Below, in pieces: positions 36,081 to 59,931 of a stretch of 64,000 nucleotides of DNA; positions within the stretch are counted from its first letter, which is position 1; each line of letters begins with the position of its first letter. The DNA lies in the NCBI RefSeq assembly GCF_019469265.1, contig NZ_CP048268.1, positions 1,939,001 through 2,003,000 on the forward strand. The letters are read 5' to 3'. Origin of the DNA: Lactobacillus panisapium (GTDB lineage Bacteria > Bacillota > Bacilli > Lactobacillales > Lactobacillaceae). The notes under the pieces are model-generated. The model worked only from the letters and a program-made list of their open reading frames with translations. It was not told the origin of the DNA and did no database searches. The translations under genes were made by a program, and so were the position numbers.

Positions 36081-36093
36081 GCCCTCCCAGACA

Positions 36094-36148
36094 TAAAAAA
36101 AGACTTAATCTAATAACACTAACGTGAAATTATCTTTAAGTCTTTTAA
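36094..36148 (-). terminator. Attenuator-like terminator just before phnD
   Basis: Minus-strand AAAAGACTTAA (36136-36146) pairs with TTAAGTCTTTT (36098-36108), with inner pairs AAT-CAC/GTG-ATT in the loop, then seven T and, 11 bases on, the phnD ribosome site. It lies in the phnD leader, not after a separate gene apart from the mini-ORF. Confidence 0.7.
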
Positions 36149-36253
36149 TACATTATTAATTAAGAAACGAACAATACCCTCTTTTGCAAGGGAACGAAAA
36201 GAGTAACTAACAAAAATACCAATGCACGCTGCGCGCAATTCATACTTTTGCAT
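36119..36253 (-). CDS. Leader mini-ORF (44 aa) upstream of phnD
   Basis: ATG 36253 has an AAGGGAGAG site 6-8 bases upstream. The frame runs 44 codons (MQKYELRAACIGIFVSYSFR...) and stops at TAG 36119, inside the hairpin that ends in a T run before phnD. Translating it would put the ribosome on the 5' arm and stop the terminator forming. This is what a translated attenuator leader looks like; the amino-acid content shows no single repeated residue that would name a signal. Alternatively a real small protein. Confidence 0.45.
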   Translation of the reverse strand: MQKYELRAACIGIFVSYSFRSLAKEGIVRFLINNVLKDLKIISR

Positions 36254-36392
36254 GTTTTCTCACTCTCCCTTCGCCAGTCCGTAATTATTCTTACAAATAA
36301 TATCAGAAATGTTTTGTTTAGAAAAGTAATTTGTTGGAAAACTTTCTTTTTTACAAAAAAGAATGACTATTTCTTAACAATTACCGACCAGA

Positions 36393-37328
36393 TTATTTTT
36401 TGGTTGATGCAACAATCTTATTGTATTGCCGGATAATATCATAGTCGCTGTCCTTAGCGTAGGTATAGCCTTCCTGATTGTAGACACTCTCAATAATCTT
36501 TTTACCTTCTTTAGATTTAGCAATTGAAATAAATGCCTTAGCAAGTTTCTTTTGGAAAGCCTTTGGCAGACTAGGAATTACTGAAATAGTATCATTCGGG
36601 ATTTTTTGTGAGAAGTAAATTGGCACGACTTGACTCATAATCTTAGGTTCATCGCTTTTGACGTTGTTACGGGCATCTTCAAAGACAAAAGCAGCATCAG
36701 TATCACCGTTTAACACGTTCAAGACGCCTTGATCAGCTCCTTTAACGGAGACAATCTTACAACTCTTGGTGACATCAAGCCCCTTCTTCTTCAATTCAGC
36801 AACTGGGAACACGTAACCGGAATCTGAAGTAATGTCTTGAACGGAAATCGATTTACCTTTCAAATCTTTCCAACTCTTAATTGATGAGCCCTTTTTAACG
36901 ACAATTTCACTGCGATAATAATTTACCAGTTTTTTAGTGGCTACACCACCTGGCTGCTTAATGCCATAACGAACAGATTGCAATAATAAGTCAGCTGCAC
37001 CCTGCTTATGGGCCATAATATAAGCATCTGATGGTAAGAAACCAACATCGACTTTCTTAGATTTCATCGCTTCAACTAAACCATTGTAGTCGGTCGACAT
37101 TGAAACATGAACCGGAATACCGAGGCGTTTTGACAATAATTTTTCCATTGGCTTAGCCCGTGCTTCAAGCTTGTTAGCAGCAACACTGGGCACAAATTGA
37201 ACATTCAATGACTTGGGCGTGGCATCGGTTTTCGAACTTGTTTTATTACTCGAACAAGCCGTTATACCAAAGGTTAATAATAGCAAGCAAGTTGCTAACA
37301 GAAACTTCTTGATTTTGGATATTTTCAT
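36393..37328 (-). CDS. phnD: Second phosphonate-type substrate-binding lipoprotein (PhnD paralogue)
   Basis: A 311-residue lipoprotein with lipobox GITAC and the same domain as its neighbour (KPMEKLLSKRLGIPVHVSMSTDYNGLVEAMKSKKVDVGFLPSDAYIMAHKQ; DTDAAFVFEDARNNVK). It differs in the ligand-proximal loop (LPSDAY versus LPPNGY) and around TSDSGYVF versus TSSAGYVY, which could give a second substrate for the one transporter. It has its own promoter and leader, separated from the phnD-C-E-E genes by the attenuator region. Confidence 0.85.
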   Translation of the reverse strand: MKISKIKKFLLATCLLLLTFGITACSSNKTSSKTDATPKSLNVQFVPSVAANKLEARAKPMEKLLSKRLGIPVHVSMSTDYNGLVEAMKSKKVDVGFLPSDAYIMAHKQGAADLLLQSVRYGIKQPGGVATKKLVNYYRSEIVVKKGSSIKSWKDLKGKSISVQDITSDSGYVFPVAELKKKGLDVTKSCKIVSVKGADQGVLNVLNGDTDAAFVFEDARNNVKSDEPKIMSQVVPIYFSQKIPNDTISVIPSLPKAFQKKLAKAFISIAKSKEGKKIIESVYNQEGYTYAKDSDYDIIRQYNKIVASTKK

Positions 37329-44549: not shown

Positions 44550-45431
44550 CTATTTAATCTTAATATAACCATTTTTATTAGTGACTTTAAGTAGAGGCTT
44601 ATTCTTCAAAATCTTGGAGTAATGCTTCGAATATGACCGATTATTTACTTTGATTTTCCTCTTTAATTTTGTTGACAACTTATAACTCATCTTATGCGCA
44701 TTGGTCATACTAAAATCGCCATTAATCAGACTAAATGAGCTGTCACCAGTCATTACTGAGTTGCTAATCTTGACATCACCATATTTACAATTTCCTTTTT
44801 TACCTAATGCCGCATTAATCATAAATTGACTATTAGTTATAATAACATCACCAACATCCAAGCTAACCGTACCATTTTCTACTAAAGAATTATTTATTTT
44901 TAAATCACCATATTTTTGGTTTAAATGAACATTCTTAGAATCCACGCGGTTCATAACAACATCACCGTATTGTGCCTTGAGATCAATATATGGGATGGCT
45001 AAGTCATTAAAACTAAGGTCGCTCAAGTTACATGTTCCTGAAATCTTTTCGATAGTATTCCTATCAGGTACAGTTACTGTAACTAAGTAGCCACCATAAT
45101 TATGATGCTTAACTGGCTTATCATAAATAGTTAGTTGATTATTATCAACTGTAACTTTCGTATCCGTAATACGAGATTTAAGCTTCCCACTAACTGTGAC
45201 ATGAAAATCTTCGCCTACAATAAATTTTAGACTTGAGCGATCAGTATCAAGTTTAACTTGGTCGAATGCTGCCGTTTTAAAGGTTTTACTAACTTCTTGG
45301 TTAGTAGGTGCCTTTTGAGAATCTACCTTAGCATTAGTATTTTGAAAATTCAAGGCTCTTGTAACTGGAATGCCACTAATTAATATTAAAATAATTCCTA
45401 TTAAAGATATTATTTGAGATCTTTTCTTCAT
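44550..45431 (-). CDS. DUF4097-type beta-helix envelope protein, second of pair
   Basis: The 293-residue protein has an N-terminal membrane helix (MKKRSQIISLIGIILILISGIP) and then repeating short beta segments with a G-D/x pattern (LKAQYGDVVMNRV; LNQKYGDLKINNS; LDVGDVIITNS; CKYGDVKISNS), the look of DUF4097 beta-solenoids. In lactic acid bacteria such proteins rise under cell-envelope antimicrobial stress (LiaFSR-type response), where they are regarded as membrane-associated guards. It lies 51 bp downstream of its diverged twin; AGGAGGAATAA is a strong start. Role inferred from the family. Confidence 0.7.
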   Translation of the reverse strand: MKKRSQIISLIGIILILISGIPVTRALNFQNTNAKVDSQKAPTNQEVSKTFKTAAFDQVKLDTDRSSLKFIVGEDFHVTVSGKLKSRITDTKVTVDNNQLTIYDKPVKHHNYGGYLVTVTVPDRNTIEKISGTCNLSDLSFNDLAIPYIDLKAQYGDVVMNRVDSKNVHLNQKYGDLKINNSLVENGTVSLDVGDVIITNSQFMINAALGKKGNCKYGDVKISNSVMTGDSSFSLINGDFSMTNAHKMSYKLSTKLKRKIKVNNRSYSKHYSKILKNKPLLKVTNKNGYIKIK

Positions 45432-45482: not shown

Positions 45483-46355
45483 CTAATCGAAAATATGGAT
45501 GTCGCCTTTATTAGTTTTAACAGTAAACATTGGTTTGTTACTGATAGTTCGCTCAAAGTGATTCGAGTGTAATTTACCAAAAAATTTAATTTTATTTTTC
45601 TTATTACAAGATAGATTGTAGCCAATCTTTGGTGAATCGTACATAGTAAGGTCTCCCTCGTGCAGAGCGAATGAACTATTCCCCAGCACCTTCGATCCTT
45701 CAATATCAACATCATATACATCAGAATACTTTGCATTCATTTGAAACTTGCAAGTATCAATTACCGTATTACCAGTATCTGAAGTTAAAGTTGAGTTATT
45801 AATAGTTGAATCAGTAGCAGAAAAATTTCCCGACACTTGACGTAGTTTAAGCTGGTTAGTTTTAATTTTATACAGTCTAACGTCACCATAAATAGCTGCT
45901 AGCTGAATATTATTAAGGTTTAATTTATGAAGTTTAATATCACTGCCATAGCTGTAGCCTGTGACGCTTTGCAAGGCATCACTATTGGGCACAGTCACGC
46001 TGACATTGTATCTGCCTTTACTGATTGAGTGTGAGCTAGAAATAGTAAGACTTTTATTATTAACGGTAGCTTTTATTTTTTTTGCATCTGGCCCGGTAGC
46101 CTTAACCTGAAAACTTTTTCCCGTTGAAACTTTAAGGTTGATAAATCTTTTATTTAGACGAGCTTTATTAATATTAACGTTAATTTTTTCAAAAGCAGGA
46201 ACATTAAAGACTTTAGTAGTCCTACCCTTCTTTTTTACGTAGGTAATTTTAGTTTGATCTGCTTTAGCATTTTGCTTATTACTTACTTTTATACCAATAA
46301 ATATTAAAGCAATTATGACGAATAGCGAAATACACAATTTACTGATTTTTTTCAT
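45483..46355 (-). CDS. DUF4097-type beta-helix envelope protein, first of pair
   Basis: A 290-residue protein with an N-terminal helix (KISKLCISLFVIIALIFIGI) and the same repeating motif set (LAAIYGDVRLYKI; LRQVSGNFSATDS; LTSDTGNTVIDTC; MYDSPKIGYNLSC). It and the next gene are tandem paralogues with ~35% alike residues and the same layout around PNSDALQSVTGYS versus PDRNTIEKISGTC. The promoter region contains one copy of the 18-bp motif shared with the dlt and lanthipeptide operons. Confidence 0.7.
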   Translation of the reverse strand: MKKISKLCISLFVIIALIFIGIKVSNKQNAKADQTKITYVKKKGRTTKVFNVPAFEKINVNINKARLNKRFINLKVSTGKSFQVKATGPDAKKIKATVNNKSLTISSSHSISKGRYNVSVTVPNSDALQSVTGYSYGSDIKLHKLNLNNIQLAAIYGDVRLYKIKTNQLKLRQVSGNFSATDSTINNSTLTSDTGNTVIDTCKFQMNAKYSDVYDVDIEGSKVLGNSSFALHEGDLTMYDSPKIGYNLSCNKKNKIKFFGKLHSNHFERTISNKPMFTVKTNKGDIHIFD

Positions 46356-46486: not shown

Positions 46487-47449
46487 TTAAAAGCTAGATA
46501 TTTTTTTAGCAAATAATTCAACTATTAATTTATCAATTCGATCTTTCAAAACCGCAAATTCGCCCTTCCGCGTCTTATTGGCCTGAATAATAATCATGGT
46601 CTTCGCCGTCTTCGTGCTGCGCATGAAGGTGTAGTAGCCTTCTCCTGCCCCATTAGCCGTCTTTAGCCCTAAACTGGCGTCGTTATAAAAACCACCATTA
46701 TAATAAGCTGGCGGACGCGCCCGGTAGAGCTCTCGCCGGCTCTTTTTACTGAGCAGGCTGCCGGCCAGGATATAATTCATTACCTTGGCTAAATCATGAT
46801 TTGACATCACGACTGACCCGGCACCTAATTCATCATGCGCGGCTTGCAGCGCCTTTTTGTGCTTGACCACATCATAGCGGCCGCCGCGGTAAATCATGCC
46901 CGGTACCAAGCGGCTGGCAATAATCTTGCCCGGCTTGGACCATAAAAACTCCGTCTGTTTTAACTGCAGCGGCTCAACGTATGTTGCCCGGAAAAGCTGC
47001 TCATAGCTTTGACCGGTTACCTGCGTCATTATGCCGCACAAGTATACATAATTAAGCGAGCTGTAATACCATTTGCCCAACATCTTCGGCTTAAACACCG
47101 TCTTTTTCACATCGCAGGCCAGATTATCCCGGTCAGAGACAAAGTGCCGCCGGCCTAACCGCGCTCCTGGTTTTAACTGCAGCCCAGCCGTCATTGCCAA
47201 TAAATTTTCAATCGTAATCTTTTTCGCACCCGGTATTGCCGGATAGAACCGCGCTAAGCGCTCATGCAAGCTCAGCTTGCCCTCCTGCACTAGCTTCATG
47301 ACCATGGCGGCGGTCATTGACTTTTGGACGGAATTAATTAAATAACTAGTGTCAGTAGTATTATTGCTAGCATAATCAAGCAAAACTTTGCCTTTGCTAA
47401 TAACTAAAACTGAACCCTTGATCCCTAAGGCATCAATTCGCTGGCGCAC
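46487..47449 (-). CDS. dltE: Beta-lactamase-fold serine hydrolase, DltE-like (teichoic acid D-alanine esterase)
   Basis: The 320-residue protein has the SxxK catalytic motif in LINSVQKSMTAAMVMKL and a YxN-like SSLNYVY motif of the serine-hydrolase/class C beta-lactamase fold. It is the last gene of the dlt operon, its GTG overlapping the dltD stop by one base (TAGTG). In L. plantarum the gene at this place, DltE, removes D-Ala from lipoteichoic acid. Odd: DltE is membrane-bound, but this protein starts directly with MRQRIDALGIKGSVLVI and shows no signal or anchor. Confidence 0.7.
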   Translation of the reverse strand: MRQRIDALGIKGSVLVISKGKVLLDYASNNTTDTSYLINSVQKSMTAAMVMKLVQEGKLSLHERLARFYPAIPGAKKITIENLLAMTAGLQLKPGARLGRRHFVSDRDNLACDVKKTVFKPKMLGKWYYSSLNYVYLCGIMTQVTGQSYEQLFRATYVEPLQLKQTEFLWSKPGKIIASRLVPGMIYRGGRYDVVKHKKALQAAHDELGAGSVVMSNHDLAKVMNYILAGSLLSKKSRRELYRARPPAYYNGGFYNDASLGLKTANGAGEGYYTFMRSTKTAKTMIIIQANKTRKGEFAVLKDRIDKLIVELFAKKISSF

Positions 47450-48741
47450 TATTTTACTTTTAAACGATTGTTTTGCGGCTTTTGCTTAGCTGCGACTTCA
47501 TAGCGGGCTTTTTGCCACTTCTTGGTATAGAAGTAGTTATGGATGTTGTAGTTGTAGCGGTTATCGGGCTGCGCCATGAACGGCTTAACCGCCTGGTCGA
47601 CTGCCACCCAGCCGCGCCAGCCCAAGTGAATCGTATCTTCCATGAAGTACTGCTCGCCGCCCCGCTTTGACAAGTCGGTAACCTGGTCAAAACCTTGGCT
47701 GCGCAGCTGGTACTTAATTTTAGCGACTGCCTGCTGGTACATCGTCTGCGATAAGCCGGTATAGTCCGCCCACTTTTGGTTAATTGGCGGAATGATGAAC
47801 AAGACATTGGTGTGCTGCTTGGCAAACTGGTGCAACATCAGCTCAAAATCGCTGTATTCGACCGACTTGGTATAATCAAAGTTTTTCTGACTGTCCTTTA
47901 ATTTAGCCAGATTGCGCTTATTCAGCCGCATCTTAAAGAAGCGGTTGTTAATCCCAAACTCATTGGAATTAGTATGAATTGCCGCTTGCTGGCTGGCAAC
48001 TCGGTCCAGTGCCTTGGCCGAGTCAGTTGCTGGCAGCAGCTTGGCCTGACCATTTATTTTGGGCAGGCGGTCGCGCAATTGGAAGGTACTGAAAAACTTG
48101 TCCTCATTGTTAAGCATGCGCCGCTGATTTTCGAGGTAGAAACGCTGCACGCTTGACAAGGGCTGGCCGCTGGCTGCTTTTTTCATGCCGGCTTTGACCA
48201 CGCCCTTGACTTCCGGCATTGCCAAGAAGCGCTGGGCGGCGTAGCGGCTGGCGCGGCTGCTTTTCTTGAGGTCTAACAAGAAGTTGCAGGCCTGCAGCGG
48301 TGAATAATACAGTGCAAACGCATCCGGGTTTTGCCCCATTTTCGTAAACCATTGCGGTGACACAATCACGACGGCTTTTTTATTTTTTAGCTGCTTGGCC
48401 GTTCCCTGCATGCCCAAAAATTGGGCTAGCGACTGGCTGCCCGGCCCGCCTAGTAAAAACGGCCGGTAATTGCGGTGATATTTTTGGGCCAACACGCTGG
48501 GGTGCAGCGGATCAAGCCGGGACAACTCGCTAGAGCCGTAAAAGGGCACGTAGTCGTCCTTAAAGGCATCCTGCTTCATCAAGGAACCCTTAAAAACCGT
48601 GGTCGTCTGCGAATTGGCCGCCTGATAAATAGCGTCCTGCGAAAAGGTCCGCTCCCAAGGCAACAAAAAAATTACCAGCAATAAGATAAAAGCGCAAAGA
48701 ACTGGGCCAAAGATTTGCCACAGCCGGCGTTTGTTACTCAT
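47449..48741 (-). CDS. dltD: D-alanyl-lipoteichoic acid biosynthesis protein DltD
   Basis: A 430-residue protein with one N-terminal membrane helix (IFGPVLCAFILLLVIFLLPW) and the DltD acyl-transfer motifs: catalytic Ser in YVPFYGSSELSRLDPLHPS, GGPGSQSLAQFLGM, and the Asp-His dyad in MEDTIHLGWRGWVAVD. It hands D-Ala from the DltC/DltB route to lipoteichoic acid on the outer face. It overlaps dltC by 8 bp and dltE by 1 bp. Higher GC than neighbours outside the operon. Confidence 0.93.
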   Translation of the reverse strand: MSNKRRLWQIFGPVLCAFILLLVIFLLPWERTFSQDAIYQAANSQTTTVFKGSLMKQDAFKDDYVPFYGSSELSRLDPLHPSVLAQKYHRNYRPFLLGGPGSQSLAQFLGMQGTAKQLKNKKAVVIVSPQWFTKMGQNPDAFALYYSPLQACNFLLDLKKSSRASRYAAQRFLAMPEVKGVVKAGMKKAASGQPLSSVQRFYLENQRRMLNNEDKFFSTFQLRDRLPKINGQAKLLPATDSAKALDRVASQQAAIHTNSNEFGINNRFFKMRLNKRNLAKLKDSQKNFDYTKSVEYSDFELMLHQFAKQHTNVLFIIPPINQKWADYTGLSQTMYQQAVAKIKYQLRSQGFDQVTDLSKRGGEQYFMEDTIHLGWRGWVAVDQAVKPFMAQPDNRYNYNIHNYFYTKKWQKARYEVAAKQKPQNNRLKVK

Positions 48742-48973
48742 TTTTTAAACTTTCCACCTTTGCCACAATCTTGCTGGGCGTATTCCATTCGTTCCGGTCA
48801 AATTCGGAAACCGGCACATCGATCGCAAATTTTTCCTGCAGGTTCAATAACATCTGCACGCTGGCCATGGAGTCCATTAGCCCGTTGGCAAAAATATCTT
48901 CATCCATCTTGCCGGCTAAGTCTTCTCCGGTTAAATCTTGTAAAATTGCTAAAACTTCTTCTTTAATATCCAT
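48734..48973 (-). CDS. dltC: D-alanine carrier protein DltC
   Basis: A 79-residue acyl-carrier-type protein with the phosphopantetheine Ser in FANGLMDSMASVQMLLNLQEKF and helical ends; typical DltC length. It bears D-Ala as thioester, loaded by DltA. The dltC-dltB gap of 37 bp is the only real gap in this operon. AGAGGTTTAATC precedes ATG 48973. Confidence 0.95.
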   Translation of the reverse strand: MDIKEEVLAILQDLTGEDLAGKMDEDIFANGLMDSMASVQMLLNLQEKFAIDVPVSEFDRNEWNTPSKIVAKVESLKNE

Positions 48974-49010
48974 GATTAAACCTCTTAAATAATTCTATTG
49001 CCTGTTTAAG

Positions 49011-50249
49011 CTACTTCCAGCCAAACCAGAGCTGGCTGAGAAAACCTGAAAAAATCAGGAAACTGAAACAAACGACGTTAAAGGTGACGAAAATTGCCAG
49101 CCACTTGGTGTACTTGTTAGCCGGCAGCTTGTCCTTATGCTTCTTTTTAAACCTGAGCCAGCAGTCATTAATAATGATGGCGCAAGCATGGAACAAGCCG
49201 TAAACAATGTAATACCAGCTTAGCCCGTGCCAAAAGCCCATCACTAAAAACAAGAGCAGGTAGGCCGCCTGCGACAGGCGCACCGGGTTTTTAAACAGCT
49301 TTTTCTTCATTGCGAAGAAGGTAAACCGCATGTAGATGTAATCCCTAAACCAAAACGACAGCGTCATGTGCCACCGGTTCCAGAATTCCTTGATATTCTG
49401 CGAAATAAACGGCTTGTTAAAGTTCATTGGCGTGTGAATGCCCATGAAGTAGGAAATTGCCACGGCAAACAATGAATAGCCCGCAAAATCAAAGAACAGG
49501 TACATGCTGTAACAGTACATGTAAGCCAGCAGCCACCACGATAATTTCAGGCCGCCGTTAGCGGTACCGGCAATTAAAGCTGCCCGCTCAATTTTAGGCA
49601 GCCAGTAAGTGCCAAAGAACCAGCCCAAGATAAATTTATACAAAAAACCTTGGAACAAGTAACGCGTAGCTAAGCCTAAATCCGTCAGATAAGCTGCCCG
49701 TTTAGGGGCAGCATCGCATTCTTTGGCAAAGCGCCGGTAACGGTCGATGGGCCCCGAAGAAATCGTCGGGAAAAACAGCAAAAAGCGCAAGTAAGTGACC
49801 AAGTCAATTTCCTTAATCGCCCCGTCGCGGACTTCCATGATGACCTGCACGGTTTTGAAAGTGATGTACGAAATCCCCAGAAAGGCCAAGACCCCCGGTA
49901 TTTTAGCCTGGGGAAAGGCCGTTTGGACTTTTACCAAAATCAGGGGCACAATCGCTAGGAAAACCGCTAGGTAAAAGACCCACGTTTTGTTAGCCCAGTT
50001 TTTACGATAATACAGGTAACAATAAGTCAGCAGCAGCTCAAGCAATAAGTATATTAGCAGGCTGACGCCCTGCTGCCACTTATCCCCGTCAAAAATTAGG
50101 AAGAGAAAGACCAGCGAAAAAGCTATTTCATATAACTTAAAGCGGTGGCCATAATACAGACCCAAAATAATTGGTATTAAGCCAATCATTAGGAAAACAA
50201 AGTAGTGTGGATTCCCATAAGGCTGCATATTAATCAAATTAAAATGCAC
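49011..50249 (-). CDS. dltB: D-alanine transfer membrane protein DltB (MBOAT)
   Basis: The 412-residue protein has ~11 membrane segments and the MBOAT core: RFLLFFPTISSGPIDRYRRF, KEFWNRWHMTLSFWFRDYIYMRF, and the catalytic His in LLFLVMGFWHGLSWYYIVYGLFHA. It moves D-Ala from DltC across the membrane. Its GTG start overlaps the dltA stop (TAGTG); a second possible start, ATG 50228 (MQPYGNP), exists. Confidence 0.94.
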   Translation of the reverse strand: MHFNLINMQPYGNPHYFVFLMIGLIPIILGLYYGHRFKLYEIAFSLVFLFLIFDGDKWQQGVSLLIYLLLELLLTYCYLYYRKNWANKTWVFYLAVFLAIVPLILVKVQTAFPQAKIPGVLAFLGISYITFKTVQVIMEVRDGAIKEIDLVTYLRFLLFFPTISSGPIDRYRRFAKECDAAPKRAAYLTDLGLATRYLFQGFLYKFILGWFFGTYWLPKIERAALIAGTANGGLKLSWWLLAYMYCYSMYLFFDFAGYSLFAVAISYFMGIHTPMNFNKPFISQNIKEFWNRWHMTLSFWFRDYIYMRFTFFAMKKKLFKNPVRLSQAAYLLLFLVMGFWHGLSWYYIVYGLFHACAIIINDCWLRFKKKHKDKLPANKYTKWLAIFVTFNVVCFSFLIFSGFLSQLWFGWK

Positions 50250-51763
50250 TACTCGTTAACCTCCTTAATAACGGCCTTGATGTCAACCTTGCCGTTTTGC
50301 GAAATCGGTAATTGGTCCCGGTAGACAAATCGCTGCGGAATCATGTACGGCATCAGGTTCTGGGCCAGATCAGCCCGAATCAGCTGCGTAATTTCGTCTT
50401 CGCTATAGCGCTTTTTGACGCCGTCTTTTAGTTCGATTTCCGCCACAATTTGCTTGACCGTGTGGTCGCTGCCATATTTAGGCGCAGCCACGCCGTGGGC
50501 AACAAACTTATTTTTACCTAAATAATAGTTGATTTCTTCTAATTCGATCCGGTAGCCGTTGAATTTGATTTGGAAATCAATCCGGCCCCGGTAAAAGAGC
50601 AAGTCGCCATCAAAGAACCCTTCATCGCCGGAGCGATGGCTCGGGTACTGCTCGGACGGCGCTTGGAAGAAAGCCTTCGCCGTTTTTTCCGGGTTATTAA
50701 GGTAACCCTTGGAAGTGCTCGGCCCGGTAATGATAATCTCGCCTTGCCCCGGCTGATCGCCCTTAGTTTTGTCAATCGTGATTTGGGTATCTTCTTTTAC
50801 CCGCCCGATTGGCAGGCGGTCATAGTTAGCTAAGACTTCCGGCGTAATTTCCACCTGTGTCACCGCCACCGTGGTTTCGGTGGGGCCATAGGTGTTGAAA
50901 ATCTTGGCCTGCGGGAACTTCTTTTGGAGCAGCTCCGCCTCATTATGCGGCAATTCCTCGCCGCAAAAGAGAAAGTGCGTCAAATCCGGATGATGTTCGC
51001 CCGTAAAGGTCTTGTCCAAAAAGCACATCTGGGCAAATGACGGCGTCGACACCCAAACGTTAAACTGCAATTGCGGCAGCGTTTGGAAAAGCTGCGCAAA
51101 GTTTTCCGTCACGTCGTGTGGCAGAACGACCAGCTTGCCTGCTCCCACTAAAGCGGGGTACAAGCTCATGACCGACAGGTCAAACGAATACGGCGCTTGG
51201 GCCAGAAAACTAGGGTGGGCTGGCAAAGCAAAGTCGCTCATCTCCCAGTTGACAAAACTCAAGAGGTTGTTGTGACTGATCTGCACGCCCTTGGGCTTGC
51301 CGCTGGTGCCCGAAGTAAAGATAATGTAGAAATTATCATCGCCCTGAACAAAATTGGCCGGATCAACTGCGCTGGTCTCATTACCCACCTCTTCGGGGCG
51401 GATAACCTGCAAGTCAGGTAAAGCAATTGCCGGCAGCTCTTCAATCGCAATGATTGCTTCGGCTGCAGCTACTTCTTGAATCAGCACAATTCTTTCGGCA
51501 TTCGAATAACTGGCAATCGGGATATAGGCGTGACCGGCTTTAACACAGCCAAGAAAGCTGGCAATCATGTCAAAAGTTTGCCCGCCCCAGATCATAATCG
51601 GGCTGCCCGGACTGAGATTAAGGCCCATAATGTAGCCAGCCCAAGCATCGGAACGCTTTTTCAAGTCGCCGTAAGTGTTAGTTTGGCCCAGAAAGTCATA
51701 GGCAATCCGGTCTGGCTCAGCCAGCGCAATCTGATCAATTTTCTTGATAATATTTTTAATCAT
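50249..51763 (-). CDS. dltA: D-alanine--DltC ligase DltA
   Basis: The 504-residue adenylating enzyme has the A-domain motifs IFTSGTSGKPKGVQISHNNLLSF (P-loop), FNTYGPTETTVAVTQV, YRGRIDFQIKFNGYRIELEEI and the C-terminal Lys in ISQNGKVDIKAVI. It activates D-Ala with ATP and loads DltC. It is the second gene after the small DltX protein, 12 bp downstream of it. Confidence 0.96.
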   Translation of the reverse strand: MIKNIIKKIDQIALAEPDRIAYDFLGQTNTYGDLKKRSDAWAGYIMGLNLSPGSPIMIWGGQTFDMIASFLGCVKAGHAYIPIASYSNAERIVLIQEVAAAEAIIAIEELPAIALPDLQVIRPEEVGNETSAVDPANFVQGDDNFYIIFTSGTSGKPKGVQISHNNLLSFVNWEMSDFALPAHPSFLAQAPYSFDLSVMSLYPALVGAGKLVVLPHDVTENFAQLFQTLPQLQFNVWVSTPSFAQMCFLDKTFTGEHHPDLTHFLFCGEELPHNEAELLQKKFPQAKIFNTYGPTETTVAVTQVEITPEVLANYDRLPIGRVKEDTQITIDKTKGDQPGQGEIIITGPSTSKGYLNNPEKTAKAFFQAPSEQYPSHRSGDEGFFDGDLLFYRGRIDFQIKFNGYRIELEEINYYLGKNKFVAHGVAAPKYGSDHTVKQIVAEIELKDGVKKRYSEDEITQLIRADLAQNLMPYMIPQRFVYRDQLPISQNGKVDIKAVIKEVNE

Positions 51764-51775
51764 TGTTGTACCACC

Positions 51776-51937
51776 TTAAAATTCATTGTAAATAAAGTGA
51801 ACCGAGGTTAGGCCGCTATATTGATACAAATAGATTAATGCTATTAAAATAGCGCAATAAATAATTGTCGTGAGAATAAACTTGCCAACACGTTTAGCAC
51901 GTGAAGGAGTTTGATCTTTTTTAACCATATTCTTCAT
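51776..51937 (-). CDS. dltX: Teichoic acid D-Ala incorporation-associated protein DltX
   Basis: The start MKNMVKKDQTPSRAKRVGKF at ATG 51937 has GAAAGAGA upstream; the longer frame (51961) does not begin better. The ~53-residue protein has one membrane helix (FILTTIIYCAILIALIYLYQY) and ends with the characteristic VHFIYNEF tail of DltX, which is needed for transferring D-Ala onto teichoic acid. It is the operon's first gene; a copy of the shared 18-bp motif lies ~170 bp upstream. Confidence 0.88.
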   Translation of the reverse strand: MKNMVKKDQTPSRAKRVGKFILTTIIYCAILIALIYLYQYSGLTSVHFIYNEF

Positions 51938-52108
51938 ATCTCTTTCAACTATACTATACATTAAGCAATATATATAAGGAACTATACTATTTACTATATA
52001 ATATACTACAGCAAAGAGTAAAAATTCAAATTATTTCTTGATGCTTGATCCCATTAAAGGTCATTATCCTTTGTAGCTTAGCACTTTCACAGAAAAAGCC
52101 CACATTTA

Positions 52109-52266: not shown

Positions 52267-52352
52267 AGAAAAATGCTAAGAAAAAAATTCTTAGCATTTT
52301 CTAGCATTTTTTAATTATTAGAGCTCTTTTTTATTAAAAAGAGCTTTTTTAT
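52267..52352 (-). terminator. Double terminator after the lanthipeptide precursor genes
   Basis: Minus-strand AATGCTAAGAA pairs with TTCTTAGCATT around five A/T and is followed by TTTTT (52267-52300). A second hairpin, AGCTCTTTTT/AAAAAGAGCT (52322-52346), sits nearer the precursor gene. The stretch 51938-52266 otherwise holds the dlt promoter region with the copy-B motif at 52109; no gene. Confidence 0.8.
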
Positions 52353-52483
52353 TATCTACACTTTGTGCTCTTGTGGCTCTTGTGGATACTTGAGCAGTAA
52401 TTGCTTTGACCACTCTTACGAATTAACATTGAACTGTCAAATGAAGGATCTTGTTTTTGTAAGTCTAAAATTGGATTTTCCAT
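52352..52483 (-). CDS. lanA2: Class III lanthipeptide precursor 2
   Basis: A 43-codon gene behind a GGGGGTG site. Leader MENPILDLQKQDPSFDSSM has the ILDLQ motif that class III LanKC enzymes bind (usually IL-x-LQ). The following core region has two Ser-x-x-Ser-x-x-Cys motifs, SGQSNYC (24-30) and SHKSTKC (36-42), joined by SSIHK and ended by Arg. Such motifs form labionin or (methyl)lanthionine rings. It differs from the first precursor only at residue 21 (Ile for Met). The core is cationic and His-containing, unlike most class III peptides. Confidence 0.85.
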   Translation of the reverse strand: MENPILDLQKQDPSFDSSMLIRKSGQSNYCSSIHKSHKSTKCR

Positions 52484-52523
52484 ATTTTTCACCCCCTTTC
52501 CCTATAAAAACTTTTAACATATG

Positions 52524-52655
52524 TTATCTACATTTTGTACTCTTGTGGCTCTTATGAATACTTGAGCAGTAATTACTTTGACCACTCTTACGCATTAACA
52601 TTGAACTGTCAAATGAAGGATCTTGTTTTTGCAAGTCTAAAATTGGATTTTCCAT
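52524..52655 (-). CDS. lanA1: Class III lanthipeptide precursor 1
   Basis: A 43-codon gene with a perfect AAAGGAGGTGA site. Same leader (ILDLQ at 5-9), same core with Sx2Sx2C twice, Met at 21. The two precursors differ by silent third-base changes and one residue, so they are a recent duplication. It follows lanKC by 29 bp on the same strand and must be on the same transcript or have a local promoter. No LanP protease gene is present, so leader removal relies on another protease. Confidence 0.87.
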   Translation of the reverse strand: MENPILDLQKQDPSFDSSMLMRKSGQSNYCSSIHKSHKSTKCR

Positions 52656-52684
52656 GTTTTTTCACCTCCTTTCTGTGAATGTAG

Positions 52685-55315
52685 CTAGAATATATTGGCA
52701 TCGACTGGTAATGGTAAAAATGCATAGCTTTGCTTTTTTATAACTCCTAAAAGAGCTAAAATTATTCCGCTTGCACCAGTAGATACATCCATTGAGCACT
52801 TAAGTCCTGTAGCGCCAGGTATATAAACTTCACTAGTGCCATTTGAAAATAAATACATATTTAATCCATCCAATATATAATTCATTAAATCAGATGATGA
52901 AAAAATATTATTAACAAGAGTACCTAATACTAAAAATCCGGCATATCCTTCTAAAAGGCCTGCTTCCACTGTAGATATACAGAAAGTAGTAGATATTAAA
53001 TCTTGCAAAATTTTTTTCCTTTTATTATTTAGAAAAGATTTTTTATCTTGATATATAGATATCATCACAACTGCTACCCCAGCCGCTCCATCATTTAGAT
53101 ATGGTATAGCTCTGTTTACTTTTCTACTAGTATCTATAATATACAAGCTACCTTCTTCATCATATTTAAGTTGGTATTTAATCACATAGTCAATAATTTC
53201 TATACCTATGCTTTTGTACTTGGTCTGCCCTGTCTTTTGTCCAACTTTATACAAAAATAAAGCTTCACCAGCTAATCCGTTGAGTAAGCCAGCATTTACA
53301 TTTTTTACCGGCTTACTAGTTCTATTTAAAAAATCTTTTTCTACAATATCAGCAGCTTCATAGCATTTCTTTAGTAATTGATTGTCCTGGGTTAAGAGAT
53401 AACCTGCTAAAAATGCCATACCAATTCCTGAAACTCCTGAATAAATTGAGACTCCTTGAACATTAGATAAGCTAATTTTTTTAAGTAAACTAGTGGCTTT
53501 TTCTTTTTCACCTAAATCATAAAGAACTGAACAAATTCCAGCTAAGCCATCAAATAATCCATATGAATTTTCTTTACTAAAATCCATCGAAGAGATTATC
53601 GCACAATTTTCACTAAGCCAATTGTCAAAATCATTCACAATTTCATCTGGTATACCGCCTGAGCGAATTAACGTCATTATTCCACCAAAAGCACCATAAC
53701 TTATAGCATACCTAGACACATTGTCCCGATATTGCTTAATGTCACCTTTGATTAGTCCTTTGCTTTGAAAATCAAGGTTATTAACTATACCTTGTCTTAA
53801 ATGATTAACAAAAGCTTGAGCTGTTTTTTTAGATAATTTCTCATTAGGAATCTTTAAAAACTCTTTTATAAATAACGGTGAACCATCAACATTTGTATAT
53901 TTAGAAATCTCAAGTTTAATGTTTTCTAAAAATTCAACAATCTCATCTCCAAAAATAGTTTTTATTCTTTCATAATAAATTTCTTCAATTTTCGGGGACA
54001 AACTACTATTAGCAGTTTCAATAGGCATTAGTAAATATAAAGCTATTTTACCAACAGCATACCAATCTGCTTCACCATAAGTATCTGCGTTATTAGAAAC
54101 AAAACCCAGAGTCATTATACCCGGTTCATATTTTGTATTAGGATTTTGAGCTGCTTCAAAATCAATTAATGTTATTTTTTGTTCCTTCTCTGAGAAAATA
54201 ACATTAGAAGGTTGTAAATCTCCGATTGCAACCCCCTCTGCATGAATTGACTTAATTGCCTTTAAAAGCTCACTTATTATAAACTTTATATTAGTTATAT
54301 ATTTTTGAAGCTCTTTTTTACTAGTCTTTGCTATATTAAATGGAAACTTTATCGCAATAAAATCATCTAAATTCATTCCCTTAATAAAGTTTTCTTCCAA
54401 GTAATTATGCTTCCAGGCAGTAAAGTAATTATTTACATTAACAACAAAGGGATTGTCTTTTAAACTATCTAAGACTCTATATTCATGTAATACTCTATAA
54501 AATCCATCAGTTTCTTTAGAATCTAGCCCAGCTTCAGGACGACCCTCTTTTAATATACAGGTTCTGTTATTAATTGATGCTTTATATACCCCACCAGCAT
54601 CGCTAAAAGAAATTGCATTGACAATTTTATATTTCTTTAATTCCTTATATTCAGAAATCGGAACCGCTTTATTGTTTTCTTGAATCTTCATTGGTTCTTT
54701 CACAAATTCAGGCAGGTAATAATAAGGAACCCTTTTGTCAGGAATTAGCTTTCCACTAGGATCTTTAATAGCATCAACTTTTTTCCCATCTTTAATCATG
54801 GTCATTTCTTTAAAACCACCATATCTGAAGAAAACGTTGCCGTTTTTCCACTGTTTATCGTTCAAAATATACGGTCCATTATTATAGAACTTAGTCAGCT
54901 CATGCAAATCATCCAATAATTTAATAAATATTTTTGTATCATGCGGATAAACAGTTATAAATTTTCCAGATGATGCTCTGTTCGCATTCTTGGAATTCCT
55001 ATCAATTAATTTATCTATAGTAGGGATAAATTTGAATGAGATATTATTATTAATAAGATATTTCGAAACAGCATAGAGTTCTTCTTGAGCTTCCATTGGA
55101 ACTGCAGTTATATGTATTTTCCATCCCTGATCAGGTGAATTTTGTTCATTTTTATTTAACATATATATCCAATCAGCATCAATTGTATATATCCAATCAT
55201 CGGATGAAAAACTAGCAATTGATAATCTATCTTCCGGCTTATCAATTCTATTAGGTTCAGAATAAAACAATTCTTTATTATTAACACTATAATCCAGGTA
55301 ACGATCGTCCAACAT
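52685..55315 (-). CDS. lanKC: Class III lanthipeptide synthetase LanKC
   Basis: The 876-residue enzyme has three parts. Residues ~1-230 fit the lyase-like domain with an RYGGFKEM patch. Residues ~231-490 are a Ser/Thr kinase: nucleotide Lys256 in CILKEG, catalytic loop GDLQPSN (365-371), and DFE (385-387). Residues ~520-876 are a LanC-like cyclase of repeated Gly-rich helices (GLFDGLAGICSVLY; GLLNGLAGEALFLY; NDGAAGVAVVMI; GLLEGYAGFLVLG), with no Cys-Cys-His zinc ligands at the usual sites, which sets it in class III rather than class IV. It phosphorylates, eliminates and cyclises the precursors. It overlaps the transporter gene by 29 bp. Confidence 0.9.
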   Translation of the reverse strand: MLDDRYLDYSVNNKELFYSEPNRIDKPEDRLSIASFSSDDWIYTIDADWIYMLNKNEQNSPDQGWKIHITAVPMEAQEELYAVSKYLINNNISFKFIPTIDKLIDRNSKNANRASSGKFITVYPHDTKIFIKLLDDLHELTKFYNNGPYILNDKQWKNGNVFFRYGGFKEMTMIKDGKKVDAIKDPSGKLIPDKRVPYYYLPEFVKEPMKIQENNKAVPISEYKELKKYKIVNAISFSDAGGVYKASINNRTCILKEGRPEAGLDSKETDGFYRVLHEYRVLDSLKDNPFVVNVNNYFTAWKHNYLEENFIKGMNLDDFIAIKFPFNIAKTSKKELQKYITNIKFIISELLKAIKSIHAEGVAIGDLQPSNVIFSEKEQKITLIDFEAAQNPNTKYEPGIMTLGFVSNNADTYGEADWYAVGKIALYLLMPIETANSSLSPKIEEIYYERIKTIFGDEIVEFLENIKLEISKYTNVDGSPLFIKEFLKIPNEKLSKKTAQAFVNHLRQGIVNNLDFQSKGLIKGDIKQYRDNVSRYAISYGAFGGIMTLIRSGGIPDEIVNDFDNWLSENCAIISSMDFSKENSYGLFDGLAGICSVLYDLGEKEKATSLLKKISLSNVQGVSIYSGVSGIGMAFLAGYLLTQDNQLLKKCYEAADIVEKDFLNRTSKPVKNVNAGLLNGLAGEALFLYKVGQKTGQTKYKSIGIEIIDYVIKYQLKYDEEGSLYIIDTSRKVNRAIPYLNDGAAGVAVVMISIYQDKKSFLNNKRKKILQDLISTTFCISTVEAGLLEGYAGFLVLGTLVNNIFSSSDLMNYILDGLNMYLFSNGTSEVYIPGATGLKCSMDVSTGASGIILALLGVIKKQSYAFLPLPVDANIF

Positions 55316-57044
55316 TTTTACTTTCCTTTCCAGAAATATTAGTTTTTAAAAACTGCTCTTTCACAAAATTCCTATATTTCGGTACACTTCGCAATAATTG
55401 TTCATGCGTTCCTGAAGCTGCAATTGTTTTATTATCTAAAAAATATATCTTGTCAGAATCAATGATAGTCGACAATCTATGAGCTATTGCGATAATTGTT
55501 TTACCTTTCATAACTTCTTTTAAAGCCAAGGAAACTTTTTTTTCTGAATCTGCATCAAGATTTGAAGTGGCTTCATCTAAAATTAAGAAATCAGGATCTT
55601 TTAAGTAGGCCCTTGCTATCTGTAACCTTTGTCTCTGACCACCTGATAGCTTTAACCCTTGCTCTCCAACTATTTCATGAACTCCTCTCCTTAAACTAGA
55701 TAAAAATGTTGATAAGTTAGCTATCTTTATAGCATTATTAATTTCATCATTTGAAGGCAGATTTTTAAGTCCAAATACTAGATTGTCATAAATAGTACCA
55801 GAAATAATATAATTTTCTTGTGAAACCACACCGAACATTGAACGCCATTGACTTAAATCAATTTTCTTACTATCAATACCATTCAACATAATTGAACCAG
55901 CATTAGGATTATATAATCTGGTTATTAGATTAACCAAAGTAGTTTTACCAGCACCAGAAGAGCCAACTATTGCAATTTTCTTCTTTGCTGGGAAGTCAAC
56001 ATTAACCTTCTCTAAAACCATTTTTTTGTCATATGAAAAGCATAGATTTCTAACTGATAAACTGTATGGTTTACTTATTTTAAGCTTAGAAGAGCCAACA
56101 ATATATTTCTCTGGTTTTTCATGCAGAATCTCAATTATTTTTGCTACTGCACCTTTAGTTTGCTTATAATTAGTATAAAAATCGGCTATTGTATTTATTG
56201 GACCGATTACTTGATAAAAATAAATTAAAAAAGAGGTTAGTGATCCAATAGTTAAGGTGCTTTGCTGTACTCGATATCCTCCATAAAGTAAGACAGAAAC
56301 TATTAAGACAAAAGAAACCAAGCTCTGAATGGGTGAAATAACTGCATAAACTGCCTCATTTTTAACTGATAGTTTATAAAGAAGCCGTAGTTTCTTACCA
56401 AACTTCACAAGAACATTTTCTTCCGCCTCACTCAATTTCACAGCTCTGATGTTTCTTAAGCTTTCTGTCACTATTCCAGTCAAGTCACTCAAACTTTTTT
56501 GAGATTTAACAGTTAATTTTTCCTCATAGTTACCAAGGGGAATGGTAATTAAGGCATCCAATGGGAATATTAAGAAAATAAGTAATGATAATTTCCAATC
56601 TAATAAAAACAGCACAATAAATGTTCCGATCGTAGTTATTAGACTTGTAATAAATTCTGGGACAACCCCGGTAATAAAATTTTTAACTAAGACTGAATCA
56701 TTAATTACTCTACTAGAAAGTTGCCCACTTTCTTGATTATCAAAGAAAGGAATCGGTAAATGTATTAAATGTGTTTGCAATAAGTTCCTTATATCAGCTA
56801 TTTGTCTTTCTCCTTCTCTGCTAATCAAAAAGTTACCCATTGCACTTATAACTGTTTGTAAAACTAAAATTGTAACTAATTTAGATAAAAAAGATAAAGA
56901 TAATGTTGATTTAAAAATATTCTTCAAATCAATAATATTCTTAATATAAAGGGGAACTATTACTCCTAAAACACTGCTGATAATTGATAAAAATAATCCA
57001 ACCCAAAAAAATTTTTTAAGTCTTATCAGTCTGATAACTTTCAA
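55287..57044 (-). CDS. lanT: ABC exporter (half-transporter, fused permease-ATPase) of the lanthipeptide cluster, LanT
   Basis: A 585-residue protein: six membrane helices (~10-300) and an ATPase with Walker A GSSGAGKTT, signature LKLSGGQRQRLQIARAYL and Walker B FLILDEATSNLD. There is no C39 peptidase domain, so it exports without cutting the leader. The start is unclear: the annotated TTG 57044 lacks a ribosome site, while AAAGGGGG lies 6-9 bases before in-frame ATC/ATT codons at 57062/57059. It is the first gene of the cluster. It is ~24-base overlapping with lanKC start, so translation is coupled. Confidence 0.88.
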   Translation of the reverse strand: MKVIRLIRLKKFFWVGLFLSIISSVLGVIVPLYIKNIIDLKNIFKSTLSLSFLSKLVTILVLQTVISAMGNFLISREGERQIADIRNLLQTHLIHLPIPFFDNQESGQLSSRVINDSVLVKNFITGVVPEFITSLITTIGTFIVLFLLDWKLSLLIFLIFPLDALITIPLGNYEEKLTVKSQKSLSDLTGIVTESLRNIRAVKLSEAEENVLVKFGKKLRLLYKLSVKNEAVYAVISPIQSLVSFVLIVSVLLYGGYRVQQSTLTIGSLTSFLIYFYQVIGPINTIADFYTNYKQTKGAVAKIIEILHEKPEKYIVGSSKLKISKPYSLSVRNLCFSYDKKMVLEKVNVDFPAKKKIAIVGSSGAGKTTLVNLITRLYNPNAGSIMLNGIDSKKIDLSQWRSMFGVVSQENYIISGTIYDNLVFGLKNLPSNDEINNAIKIANLSTFLSSLRRGVHEIVGEQGLKLSGGQRQRLQIARAYLKDPDFLILDEATSNLDADSEKKVSLALKEVMKGKTIIAIAHRLSTIIDSDKIYFLDNKTIAASGTHEQLLRSVPKYRNFVKEQFLKTNISGKESKNVGRSLPGL

Positions 57045-57169
57045 ATTGCTTTTAAAAATGATATTCTACCCCCTTTTATATAAAAAATCGTATTAGTAAA
57101 AGTTGATTCATTAACGATATTTTTACTATATTGAAGAATATCATTATCATAAAAAAGACTTTGAACTTA

Positions 57170-57307: not shown

Positions 57308-58159
57308 CTAGCGATTATAGGATTGTTTCAATTGAGAAAAAGTATTTTGTAGGGATAGCTTAAGTTGATGGAAATTTAAATAGTCTAACATCGGGAAAAA
57401 AGCTTCATTAATTCTTGAATCATCTTTAGTTTTTATAAATAAAATTAATTCATCAAGGAATTTTAGTCGAATTTTTTCATAGGCGAAATTATCACTCAGT
57501 TTTAAAGCTTTTAACTCTGAATATAGTTCTTGTGCATAGTGGAAATCAGTATAGAGTAATAAAGAATTAGCATTAATTAAAGTCGCTATCGCAGCATGTT
57601 GCCACTGATAATCATTGTCATTTTCCTGATATTTGACTAAAAGTGAATGTGCAAATCCAAAAACGCGCTTTCCCGGTAAAAGGAAAAGAGTATTGCCAAA
57701 GTTAAACAAATCTTCGTAATACCAGTCTTCAATTTCCGAAAGTAATTCTTCTAACCTACTCAAGTCCTTAGGAGTAAACAAATTAATTTCTGTATCGGCC
57801 TTTAATAAATTACAAGCAATTGCTGCTCTTAATAGTAGTGCTCGATCATAAGGATTTTGTTGACTGCTTTTTAAATATACAGTCGCCAGTTCTTTAAGTC
57901 GTTGATCATTACCATGATAATATGTAGTAGCTATTTCTTTAAAATCAAGGTTGTCGCTTAAACTGTCCGTGACAAATTCAGATGGCTTAATTCGCATGCG
58001 TTCAAGCATTGCAATCACTTTTTCAAAAGACATATTGGCCTGCCCTTTTTCCCAATAATATAAAGAAGACTTAGAAGTAATATCACGAGAAGCTGTATCT
58101 AAACTTATCCCTTTTTGTTTTCTTATTTGTTTAAATTTTTTACCAAATTTATTATTCAC
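57308..58159 (-). CDS. Rgg/GadR/MutR-type transcriptional regulator
   Basis: The 283-residue protein has an N-terminal HTH (MNNKFGKKFKQIRKQKGISLDTASRDITSKSSLYYWEKGQANMSFEKVIAMLERM) and a helical C-terminal domain (TPR-like; e.g. ELATVYLKSSQQNPYDRALLLRAAIA), the layout of Rgg-family pheromone receptors. Start is GTG 58159 after GAGGTACC. It is upstream of the lanthipeptide operon in the same direction and divergent from a hydrophobic mini-ORF, so pheromone control of lanthipeptide production is likely by analogy to MutR and Rgg/SHP. Confidence 0.8.
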   Translation of the reverse strand: MNNKFGKKFKQIRKQKGISLDTASRDITSKSSLYYWEKGQANMSFEKVIAMLERMRIKPSEFVTDSLSDNLDFKEIATTYYHGNDQRLKELATVYLKSSQQNPYDRALLLRAAIACNLLKADTEINLFTPKDLSRLEELLSEIEDWYYEDLFNFGNTLFLLPGKRVFGFAHSLLVKYQENDNDYQWQHAAIATLINANSLLLYTDFHYAQELYSELKALKLSDNFAYEKIRLKFLDELILFIKTKDDSRINEAFFPMLDYLNFHQLKLSLQNTFSQLKQSYNR

Positions 58160-58289: not shown

Positions 58290-58528
58290 TTATATTTTAT
58301 CACTAATATTTTTTATATATACAAGTGAAATGATATAATGGTAAGTCAACTAAATAGAAAAAGGACGGTAGATAAAATTAGTAATATCTGTAACGTACCA
58401 AAAAACATGAGATCATCAACTAATCTATCGATTTACGAGCATATTATAAAAGTTGTAAAAGAAAAAAATCTGGAAAATTGAAGTTAACCCCCGGAATTGG
58501 ACAAAGATTCCAATTCGGGGGTTTTCTT

Positions 58529-59053
58529 ATGTCTAAATATTTACTAAAAACAAAATTAGAAGCAGTAGATTTGTATCAAAGAGGATTTAGTACAAAAGAA
58601 ATTCAAGAGAAATTACATATCACATCACGTAAATCTATTGATGGTTGGATCAATAATTATCAACAGTATGGTAACAGAGGCCTGGAAAAAAGCTTTTCTA
58701 AGACAAGATATAGTGGTCAATTTAAATTAGAAGTCTTAAACTGGAGAAAAGAACATAGTGCCAGCTATCAAATTACTGCCAATCATTTTAATATTAAACA
58801 ACATTCCACTATTGCGAATTGGCAAAGAAAATTAAATGAAGGCGGTGTTGATGCTTTATTTATTAAGCAAGGACGACCATTAATGCATAAAAAGAAAATT
58901 AAAGCAAAGAAGCATAAATATACTTCTCAAGAGTTAACTGAACTTGAACGTCTACGTTTAGAGAATCGTGCATTACATGTAGAAAATGAATATCTAAAAA
59001 AACTAGATGCCTTAGTTCAGAAACGCGGACATCGGACGAAGAAAGATCTATAG
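58529..59053 (+). CDS. IS150-type transposase OrfA (DNA-binding part)
   Basis: The start ATG 58529 (MSKYLLKTKLEAVDLYQRGFS) is preferred over an ATG at 58478 that spans the element's left end. The 174-residue protein carries two HTH motifs (KLHITSRKSIDGWINNYQQYG; HFNIKQHSTIANWQRKLNEGG) and a C-terminal leucine-rich coiled coil (LTELERLRLENRALHVENEYLKKL) for dimer formation. Frame minus 1 continues into OrfB. Confidence 0.92.
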   Translation: MSKYLLKTKLEAVDLYQRGFSTKEIQEKLHITSRKSIDGWINNYQQYGNRGLEKSFSKTRYSGQFKLEVLNWRKEHSASYQITANHFNIKQHSTIANWQRKLNEGGVDALFIKQGRPLMHKKKIKAKKHKYTSQELTELERLRLENRALHVENEYLKKLDALVQKRGHRTKKDL

Positions 59054-59112
59054 TTAATGAACTAAGGCAAGAATTTGGCTTTAAATTAAAAGAAATATTA
59101 CCCTACACAAGT

Positions 59113-59931
59113 TTGTCTAAAAGTACATTCGAGTACCATCCTCATCCAAAAAAGAAGCTGATCAGTGATAAAGCACTTGTTTCAATTATCAAAATGATAA
59201 AGAAGCATCATGCTAGTTATGGATACTGGCCTGTAACTGATACTCTGAGGATGACTTATCACTTAATGGTTAATCATAAACGTGTTCAACGCTTAATGCG
59301 TGAGAACAATTTAGGAGCTAATAAATATAATCTGAGAGCCGGTAAATATGATTCTTCAAAGGGTCCACAAAATAAGAAAGCTAAGAATCGGTTCCATCAA
59401 AAGTTTAAGACTGATAGACCATATCAAAAGGTCGTAACTGATATTAGTGAATTTAGATATGGGAAAATGACTATCCGTGATCGTGTATATTTATCGCCAT
59501 TTAAGGACTTATTCAGCGGTGAAATTATCAGTTATACAATCACCGATCGTCCATTAACAAGATATGTTCTAGAAGGATTAGAGGGAGTGTTTACTGCAAG
59601 ACCAAAGCTATTAAATTATCGAATGACAATCCATAGTGATCAAGGAATTCAATATCAATCTAATCCATATCGACATGCTTTACGAAAACATAAAGTATTT
59701 CAAAGCATGTCACGAAGAGCTACATGTCATGATAATGCAGCTATGGAAAGTTTCTTTCACATTATGAAAGTTGAAATGAATTATTTTACACATCACTTTG
59801 ATACTAAGAAACAATTGGTTAAGGCGATGAAAGAATGGATAAGTTATTACAATGAAGATAGAATTCGGCACAAACTAAAAGGCTTAACTCCGATTCAATA
59901 TCGGAATCAAGCCTTAAGTAAAATGATATAA
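59113..59931 (+). CDS. IS150-type transposase OrfB (integrase core)
   Basis: The product has the DDE motifs: VVTDISEFRYG, IHSDQGIQYQS and DNAAMESFFHIMKVE, spaced as in IS3 elements. As an independent frame it begins at TTG 59113, but the frame is open upstream through GDEERSIVNELRQEFGFK-like codons into OrfA, so it is made mainly as an OrfAB fusion after a -1 slip at AAAAAAA. Both frames look intact; the copy could be active. Confidence 0.92.
   Translation: MSKSTFEYHPHPKKKLISDKALVSIIKMIKKHHASYGYWPVTDTLRMTYHLMVNHKRVQRLMRENNLGANKYNLRAGKYDSSKGPQNKKAKNRFHQKFKTDRPYQKVVTDISEFRYGKMTIRDRVYLSPFKDLFSGEIISYTITDRPLTRYVLEGLEGVFTARPKLLNYRMTIHSDQGIQYQSNPYRHALRKHKVFQSMSRRATCHDNAAMESFFHIMKVEMNYFTHHFDTKKQLVKAMKEWISYYNEDRIRHKLKGLTPIQYRNQALSKMI

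Follow-up and report, generated by a model that had tools for sequence, protein, structure and literature searches.

A class III lanthipeptide gene cluster with doubled ring motifs beside an extra dlt operon in Lactobacillus panisapium

We analysed a stretch of 64,000 nucleotides (the window) from Lactobacillus panisapium, whose genome is a single 2.19-Mb contig. On the minus strand, open reading frames at 52352-57059 encode an exporter, a lanthionine synthetase and two 43-codon precursors, as the original prediction had it, and these genes follow a regulatory gene in the order Rgg-type regulator, lanT, lanKC, lanA1, lanA2 (Table 1). The Rgg-type protein, which has two paralogues elsewhere in the genome (50-52% identical), is a candidate controller of the lan operon. 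Adjoining its gene is a two-ORF transposase pair, IS3-type by eye, and farther off in the window a direct repeat occupies 35148-37209, its two stretches each about 0.8 kb long and 73% identical. LanT has no match to a peptidase family in Pfam. The probable start of its gene is ATT: in three related loci, namely the window, plasmid pIBH003-1 of Lactobacillus helsingborgensis IBH003 (L032) and an ESL0791-like genome (G053, locus L034), this codon stands behind a Shine-Dalgarno sequence, the annotated lanT CDS of L032 begins at it (4783), and the counterpart in L034 lies at 8552. At all three starts, ATT TTT AAA comes 7-8 bases after a Shine-Dalgarno-like stretch. The sequences upstream of the precursor genes are AAAGGAGGTGA (lanA1) and AAAGGGGGTGA (lanA2); for lanA2 we took the ATG behind a Shine-Dalgarno sequence in place of the upstream GTG used by the ORF program. 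Two terminator-like hairpins 3' of lanA2, from a consensus scan that found 14 in the region when 12.2 were expected in shuffles, likely end the lan operon, and the dlt operon beyond them would therefore be a separate transcription unit.

Table 1. Positions of the lan, dlt and DUF4097 genes and of associated elements in the window.
Feature	Position	Strand	Basis or remark
Rgg/GadR/MutR-family regulator	57308-58159	-	Pfam Rgg_C 1e-15 and HTH_3; TIGR01716 52.8 bits, cut-off 36.9
17-bp palindrome before lanT, TTGTTCACTATTCTGAA	57170-57186	-	Operator or terminator hairpin; part of a terminator-like hairpin
lanT, ABC exporter	55287-57044 from TTG (585 aa), or to 57059 from ATT	-	ABC_membrane and ABC_tran by Pfam, with weak matches to SMC_N/AAA_22
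lanKC, class III lanthionine synthetase, 876 aa	52685-55315	-	NF038151; Pfam RamC_N, Pkinase, LANC_like
lanA1, 43-aa precursor	52524-52655	-	ORF list; motifs
lanA2, 43-aa precursor, one residue off lanA1	52352-52483	-	ORF list; motifs
Two terminator-like hairpins 3' of lanA2	52269-52347	- (52301-52269) and + (52320-52347)	Consensus scan
17-bp palindrome before extra dltX, TTGTTCATTATACTGAA	52109-52125	-	Pattern comparison
Extra dltX	51776-51961	-	Pfam DltX 2e-17; homology to native copy starts inside gene near 51950
Extra dltA	50249-51763	-	79% to RefSeq dltA of pIBH003-1; 17 synonymous and 1 nonsynonymous codons vs native
Extra dltB	49011-50249	-	88% to dltB as annotated on pIBH003-1; same nt sequence as native
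Extra dltC	48734-48973	-	86% to dltC as annotated on pIBH003-1; same nt sequence as native
Extra dltD	47449-48741	-	Pfam DltD 2e-127; 8 synonymous and 2 nonsynonymous codons vs native
Beta-lactamase-fold serine hydrolase accompanying dlt	46487-47449	-	Pfam Beta-lactamase 7e-36
17-bp palindrome before DUF4097 pair, TTGTTCAGTATACAGAA	46428-46444	-	Pattern comparison
DUF4097 (Toastrack) protein a	45483-46355	-	Pfam 2e-15
DUF4097 (Toastrack) protein b	44550-45431	-	Pfam 3e-13

The lanKC product scored 683.6 bits against the class III model of NCBIfam (NF038151, cut-off 575) and stayed below the cut-offs of the class IV model (293.7 vs 650) and the LanM model (34.5 vs 304). Its RamC_N (37-216), Pkinase (241-436) and LANC_like (668-863) domains were found by Pfam in one chain. 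We aligned the window protein with 23 of at least 120 relatives; the lyase residues K65, H67, K94, K108, K117, D152 and R163 and the kinase residues K255, E277, D365, N370 and D384 (numbered without the first Met) are invariant in all 24 sequences. Eight lyase residues of ThurKC are named in the available extract of PMC10604976; seven of the eight agree with LanKC in letter and number, and the eighth (Arg191) was equated by eye with the invariant R194, the comparison being one of published letters and numbers. In the cyclase part, the positions expected for zinc ligands, which we located by eye, are occupied by N-D-G and L787-E788-G (F-D-G in PDB 9wop). The sole histidine after residue 500 is H504, and no cysteine stands at the ligand places in the alignment as read by eye. 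LanKC also matches PDB 8sao at 1e-128. On these sequence grounds it is nearly certain that LanKC is a class III lanthipeptide synthetase, and the absence of zinc ligands, which the original prediction had noted, is borne out. The NF038151 score and the order lanT-lanKC-two small ORFs on pIBH003-1 show the arrangement to be more than chance.

LanA1 and LanA2 differ by a single residue (M21I), and six of their seven differing codons are synonymous. Each peptide has an ILDLQ leader, of the I/L-x-LQ type, and ends in two SxxSxxC units (SGQSNYC and SHKSTKC), as had been predicted; leader and core thus have the I/L-x-LQ and SxxSx(2-5)C patterns of class III precursors. A protein search for the precursors, one of the checks originally proposed, returned the same sequence alone (1/1 candidate), such a search needing shared five-residue words and being weak for 43 residues. 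Related precursors were found beside related synthetases: pIBH003-1 encodes two peptides of 41 and 40 residues with VLALQ leaders and two SxxSxxC units each, and the ESL0791-like genome (LanKC 61% identical) encodes one peptide with doubled SxxSxxC. A description of LanA1 or LanA2 did not turn up among the literature matches listed, and the Lactobacillus group Pre_181 (PMC8960859) and Firmicutes subfamily B (PMC11251773) lie outside that comparison. The view that such small precursors are easily missed in annotation is supported, except that the L. helsingborgensis relatives are annotated, as hypothetical proteins.

We surveyed 18 LanKC loci, made up of all 16 above-cut-off loci from 75 genomes of the genus and two plasmids. 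The survey gave 34 candidate precursors, with cores cut at residue 14 throughout and two peptides of locus L038 recurring in L039; the filter required [ST]-x2-C, so that this spacing in 34/34 candidates is a product of selection. At least one such candidate was present at each of the 18 loci, and 32 of the 34 are net positive after residue 14. The class III rule given in the extract of PMC11251773 is SxxSx(2-5)C, and the same extract includes one Firmicutes subfamily whose peptides have an LQ leader and two Cys. Taken together, these observations make the two-residue spacing before Cys and the positive charge ordinary for the host group, so the original description of the first as uncommon and of the second as unusual does not hold. 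Doubled SxxSxxC cores occur in three of the 18 loci (the window, the L. helsingborgensis plasmid and the ESL0791-like genome), and the doubled motif together with the LanA sequence marks what we take to be a branch within a known class.

In a rival reading, the peptides lack labionin, carry lanthionine rings or are linear dehydrated chains, and serve as signals or surface peptides instead of antimicrobials. Class III cyclases can give lanthionine from the same motif (extract of PMC11251773), and class III and IV peptides often have no antibacterial activity (extract of PMC10673953). However, andalusicin, a class III product of Bacillus, has labionin and a narrow antibacterial activity according to the extract of PMC10604976, and the cationic cores together with the linked dlt genes suggest a wall-active peptide. 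We regard a product of this kind as unlikely.

To call the cluster complete, as the original prediction did, is too strong, because it contains no leader protease and the 2.19-Mb genome has no match to PF05193 (M16) or PF00082 (S8), models that were found in 9 and 7, respectively, of 14 control genomes. Several Firmicutes class III peptides are matured by M16B peptidases (extract of PMC8960859), and another group is reported to use S8 proteases, going by the title of a reference cited in PMC10673953. The cluster might accordingly be decaying or silent, its precursors translated and left unprocessed for want of a protease, and an insertion sequence does split lanT on the sister plasmid. This seems very improbable to us: all four lan genes are intact in the window, the precursors differ mostly by silent changes, and other proteases may serve.

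Adjoining the lan cluster is an additional dlt operon, which was absent from the original prediction. Its five genes are open and collinear (X-A-B-C-D; X and D were named by Pfam, and A, B and C by likeness to annotated genes), and over 5,442 bp the segment at 46512-51952 matches a second copy in the same genome (G000:C1:2145451-2150890) at 99.1% identity. The latter is flanked by two ORFs that are seen next to dlt in 18 of the 18 other genomes taken, and the window copy is without them; we therefore take the former as native and the window copy as extra. The two are homologous from a point inside dltX as far as into the gene for the serine hydrolase, and their upstream regions are unrelated. 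From dltA to dltD and across 310 hydrolase codons there are 33 synonymous and 8 nonsynonymous differences, five of the eight in the hydrolase. DltA was found in 67 of the 75 genus genomes (E 1e-100 or better), and two close copies are present only in the host; second dltA matches in G040 and G056 are 43% and 42% identical. The two copies of dltB and dltC are identical at every base (48734-50249) and dltA differs at 18 sites, a pattern that suggests patchwise gene conversion between the operons.

A 17-bp palindrome of the pattern TTGTTCAnTATnC(T/A)GAA lies upstream of lanT, extra dltX and the gene for DUF4097 protein a, on the sense strand in each case. Fourteen of its 17 positions are common to the three intergenic regions, an agreement reached by none of 300 dinucleotide shuffles (six reached 13), although this test came after the palindrome had been noticed. 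The exact pattern occurs at these three sites only in the 2.19-Mb genome, but because it was drawn from them its own match there proves nothing; with up to two mismatches there are 49 genome matches, as against 16 for a reversed control. The element may be an operator or a hairpin, with the Rgg protein as a candidate partner. One further genomic site differs at two positions from a 16-bp palindrome; an htrA-like gene, so named by eye, lies 25 bp downstream of it. A near-match at 919124 was taken as chance; it lies inside a single ORF of 3,995 aa (L158:3479-15466, G000:C1) with a repetitive C-terminal part, a large surface protein by eye. The idea of an envelope-stress box was dropped, as the best site in the same region has at least four mismatches in 29/29 other genus genomes. 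At the pIBH003-1 locus there is no site with fewer than three mismatches. We also rejected another shared operator on this plasmid: the lanT and dlt upstream regions have no common same-strand word of 10 to 12 bases, and we disregarded a pair of 12-base matches, both AT-rich, that lie on opposite strands.

A DUF4097 pair is found near all three related lan loci, its members merely 22-32% alike between loci. At the ESL0791-like locus (L034:13349-16169), an ORF resembling an MFS transporter by eye lies after the precursor gene, between two DUF4097-type ORFs. The family is present in 62 of the 75 genus genomes, so that presence alone means little, and it was discarded as a specific marker. According to the extract of PMC11237479, DUF4097 belongs to Toastrack, a domain of envelope-stress systems (lia is one) that have been investigated in connection with lantibiotic resistance; because the family is common in the genus, this counts as weak evidence.

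The lan-dlt linkage recurs on pIBH003-1, where two DUF4097/DUF2807 genes come next after lanA2 and dltABCD comes after them, 2.2 kb beyond the second precursor gene. These dlt genes, seen in the plasmid record and possibly an extra copy in IBH003, are 87-88% identical in nucleotide sequence to those of G030, G017 and G025 and 74% identical to the copies in the host of the window, and thus differ in descent from the extra operon. On the plasmid (L032:16279-18537), dltD and the beta-lactamase-fold hydrolase form one annotated CDS of 752 codons; they are two genes in the window. The two linked operons may stem from two separate captures or, given that dltB and dltC are identical between native and extra copies and dltA is not, from one old link followed by gene conversion in the host of the window.

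Within the stretches taken, dlt was present at two of the 16 above-cut-off LanKC loci of the genus, namely the window and G020, where a more distant LanKC (35%) lies 2 kb from a native and single dlt operon. About 0.15 dlt-linked loci would be expected among the 16 by a rough estimate that assumes a dlt density of one per 2 Mb and a view of about 9 kb to either side. Among 72,556 plasmid records, at a coverage of at least 80%, LanKC was found in 17, DltB in 12 and both in one, pIBH003-1, and about 0.003 would be expected if the two were independent. We saw no dlt at any of the remaining 14 above-cut-off loci (three cut by contig ends), including the ESL0791-like locus, whose LanKC is of the same group as that of the window, nor at five below-cut-off loci or on a Jeotgalibaca plasmid. 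A scan of a contig collection found no relative from the single LanKC protein and 571 from the 24-sequence alignment; none of the best 80 of these 571 (41 Actinobacteria by title, seven repeating genus loci) had dlt at its locus. No LanKC was found in phages. Among the literature matches listed, none concerned a class III cluster with linked dlt. We looked at five further contexts among the 12 plasmid DltB records, for which the gene tables of the collection are incomplete: one has bactofencin and dltB (Lactobacillus murinus pLmYK1), three show several dlt genes and no bacteriocin that we could recognise (the Lactobacillus crispatus one lists no dltD), and one has a lone dltB.

This distribution bears on whether the extra operon belongs functionally to the cluster. 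It could be a hitchhiker in an accessory region that gathered lan and dlt independently, with a copy that serves general envelope charge. The absence of dlt at most LanKC loci examined, the plasmid dlt genes without recognisable bacteriocins and the transposase pair at 58478-59931 speak for it, as do the GC contents (30-31% for the lan operon, 45-50% for the dlt genes), which imply different histories. It is harder to reconcile with the differing descent of two dlt copies linked to related lan clusters, with a shared palindrome not matched exactly elsewhere in the genome, and with the mostly silent differences between extra and native dlt. Hitchhiking is a real possibility that we hold to be rather less than even; of the two, we consider self-protection by the extra dlt operon somewhat more likely.

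Teichoic acid D-alanylation lowers the negative charge of the wall and protects against cationic peptides; extra dlt copies raise the resistance of Staphylococcus aureus to such peptides (citing Peschel 1999), and a DltB homologue is believed to confer immunity to bactofencin A (all from the extract of PMC11851555). Our best explanation, which we give an even chance, is that the locus is a class III lanthipeptide cluster in which extra D-alanylation protects the producer. LanKC would bind the ILDLQ leader, phosphorylate and eliminate the core Ser residues, and close a labionin or lanthionine ring at each of the two SxxSxxC units. LanT would export a cationic, probably two-ring product, with the leader removed by an unclustered protease. 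The extra dltXABCD, copied from the native operon but with a different upstream region, would raise teichoic acid D-alanylation when needed and so shield the wall of the producer from its own cationic peptide, in the way supposed for the DltB homologue and bactofencin A. The sequence itself shows the identity of the genes, the catalytic residues, the motifs, the duplication, the different descent of the two linked dlt copies and the common palindrome; the enzyme products, export, activity against cells, co-regulation and self-protection are inferred. Against this explanation stands the finding that Melissococcus plutonius was not inhibited by supernatants of bee Lactobacillus Firm5 strains carrying lanthipeptide clusters (extract of PMC10673953). 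A more specific proposal is tentative: that this is a dedicated and complete dlt self-protection operon, co-switched with the peptide genes and the DUF4097 pair via the palindrome and assembled at least twice by separate capture in Lactobacillus. To our knowledge, the self-protection of class III producers is largely an open question. If the explanation holds, a linked second dlt operon would be a concrete answer to it, the idea derived from DltB and bactofencin would widen to a whole operon and to lanthipeptides, and extra dlt copies could serve in genome mining as a flag for clusters that make cationic, wall-seeking peptides.

Several known systems resemble the locus in part. Class III clusters in bee-gut Lactobacillus Firm5 have already been described (PMC10673953); like the window they have a class III LanKC without zinc ligands, whereas neither these precursors nor a linked dlt operon are described in the extract of that paper. 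ThurKC of the andalusicin system (PDB 8sao) and PDB 9wop/9wj0 share with LanKC the lyase-kinase-cyclase build, the same catalytic residues and the lack of zinc ligands. Andalusicin differs in having seven near-identical precursors, with 11 dehydrations and labionin in ThurA1 (extract of PMC10604976), while the window peptides have two ring motifs and a cationic core. Bactofencin A, as it appears in the extract of PMC11851555, is likewise a cationic peptide of a lactobacillus-type host encoded next to a Dlt gene. It is a class IId bacteriocin with a disulphide beside dltB alone, in contrast to the lanthipeptide and full dltXABCD of the window, and the likeness is one of mechanism only. The closest system is that of pIBH003-1 (NZ_CP084385.1). 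It is plasmid-borne, its lanT is interrupted by an ISL3 element, and its precursor lengths, dlt descent and lack of a close palindrome set it apart from the window; it nevertheless has the lanT-lanKC-lanA-lanA order, a LanKC 64% identical, two precursors with two SxxSxxC units, and an adjacent DUF4097/DUF2807 pair and dltABCD.
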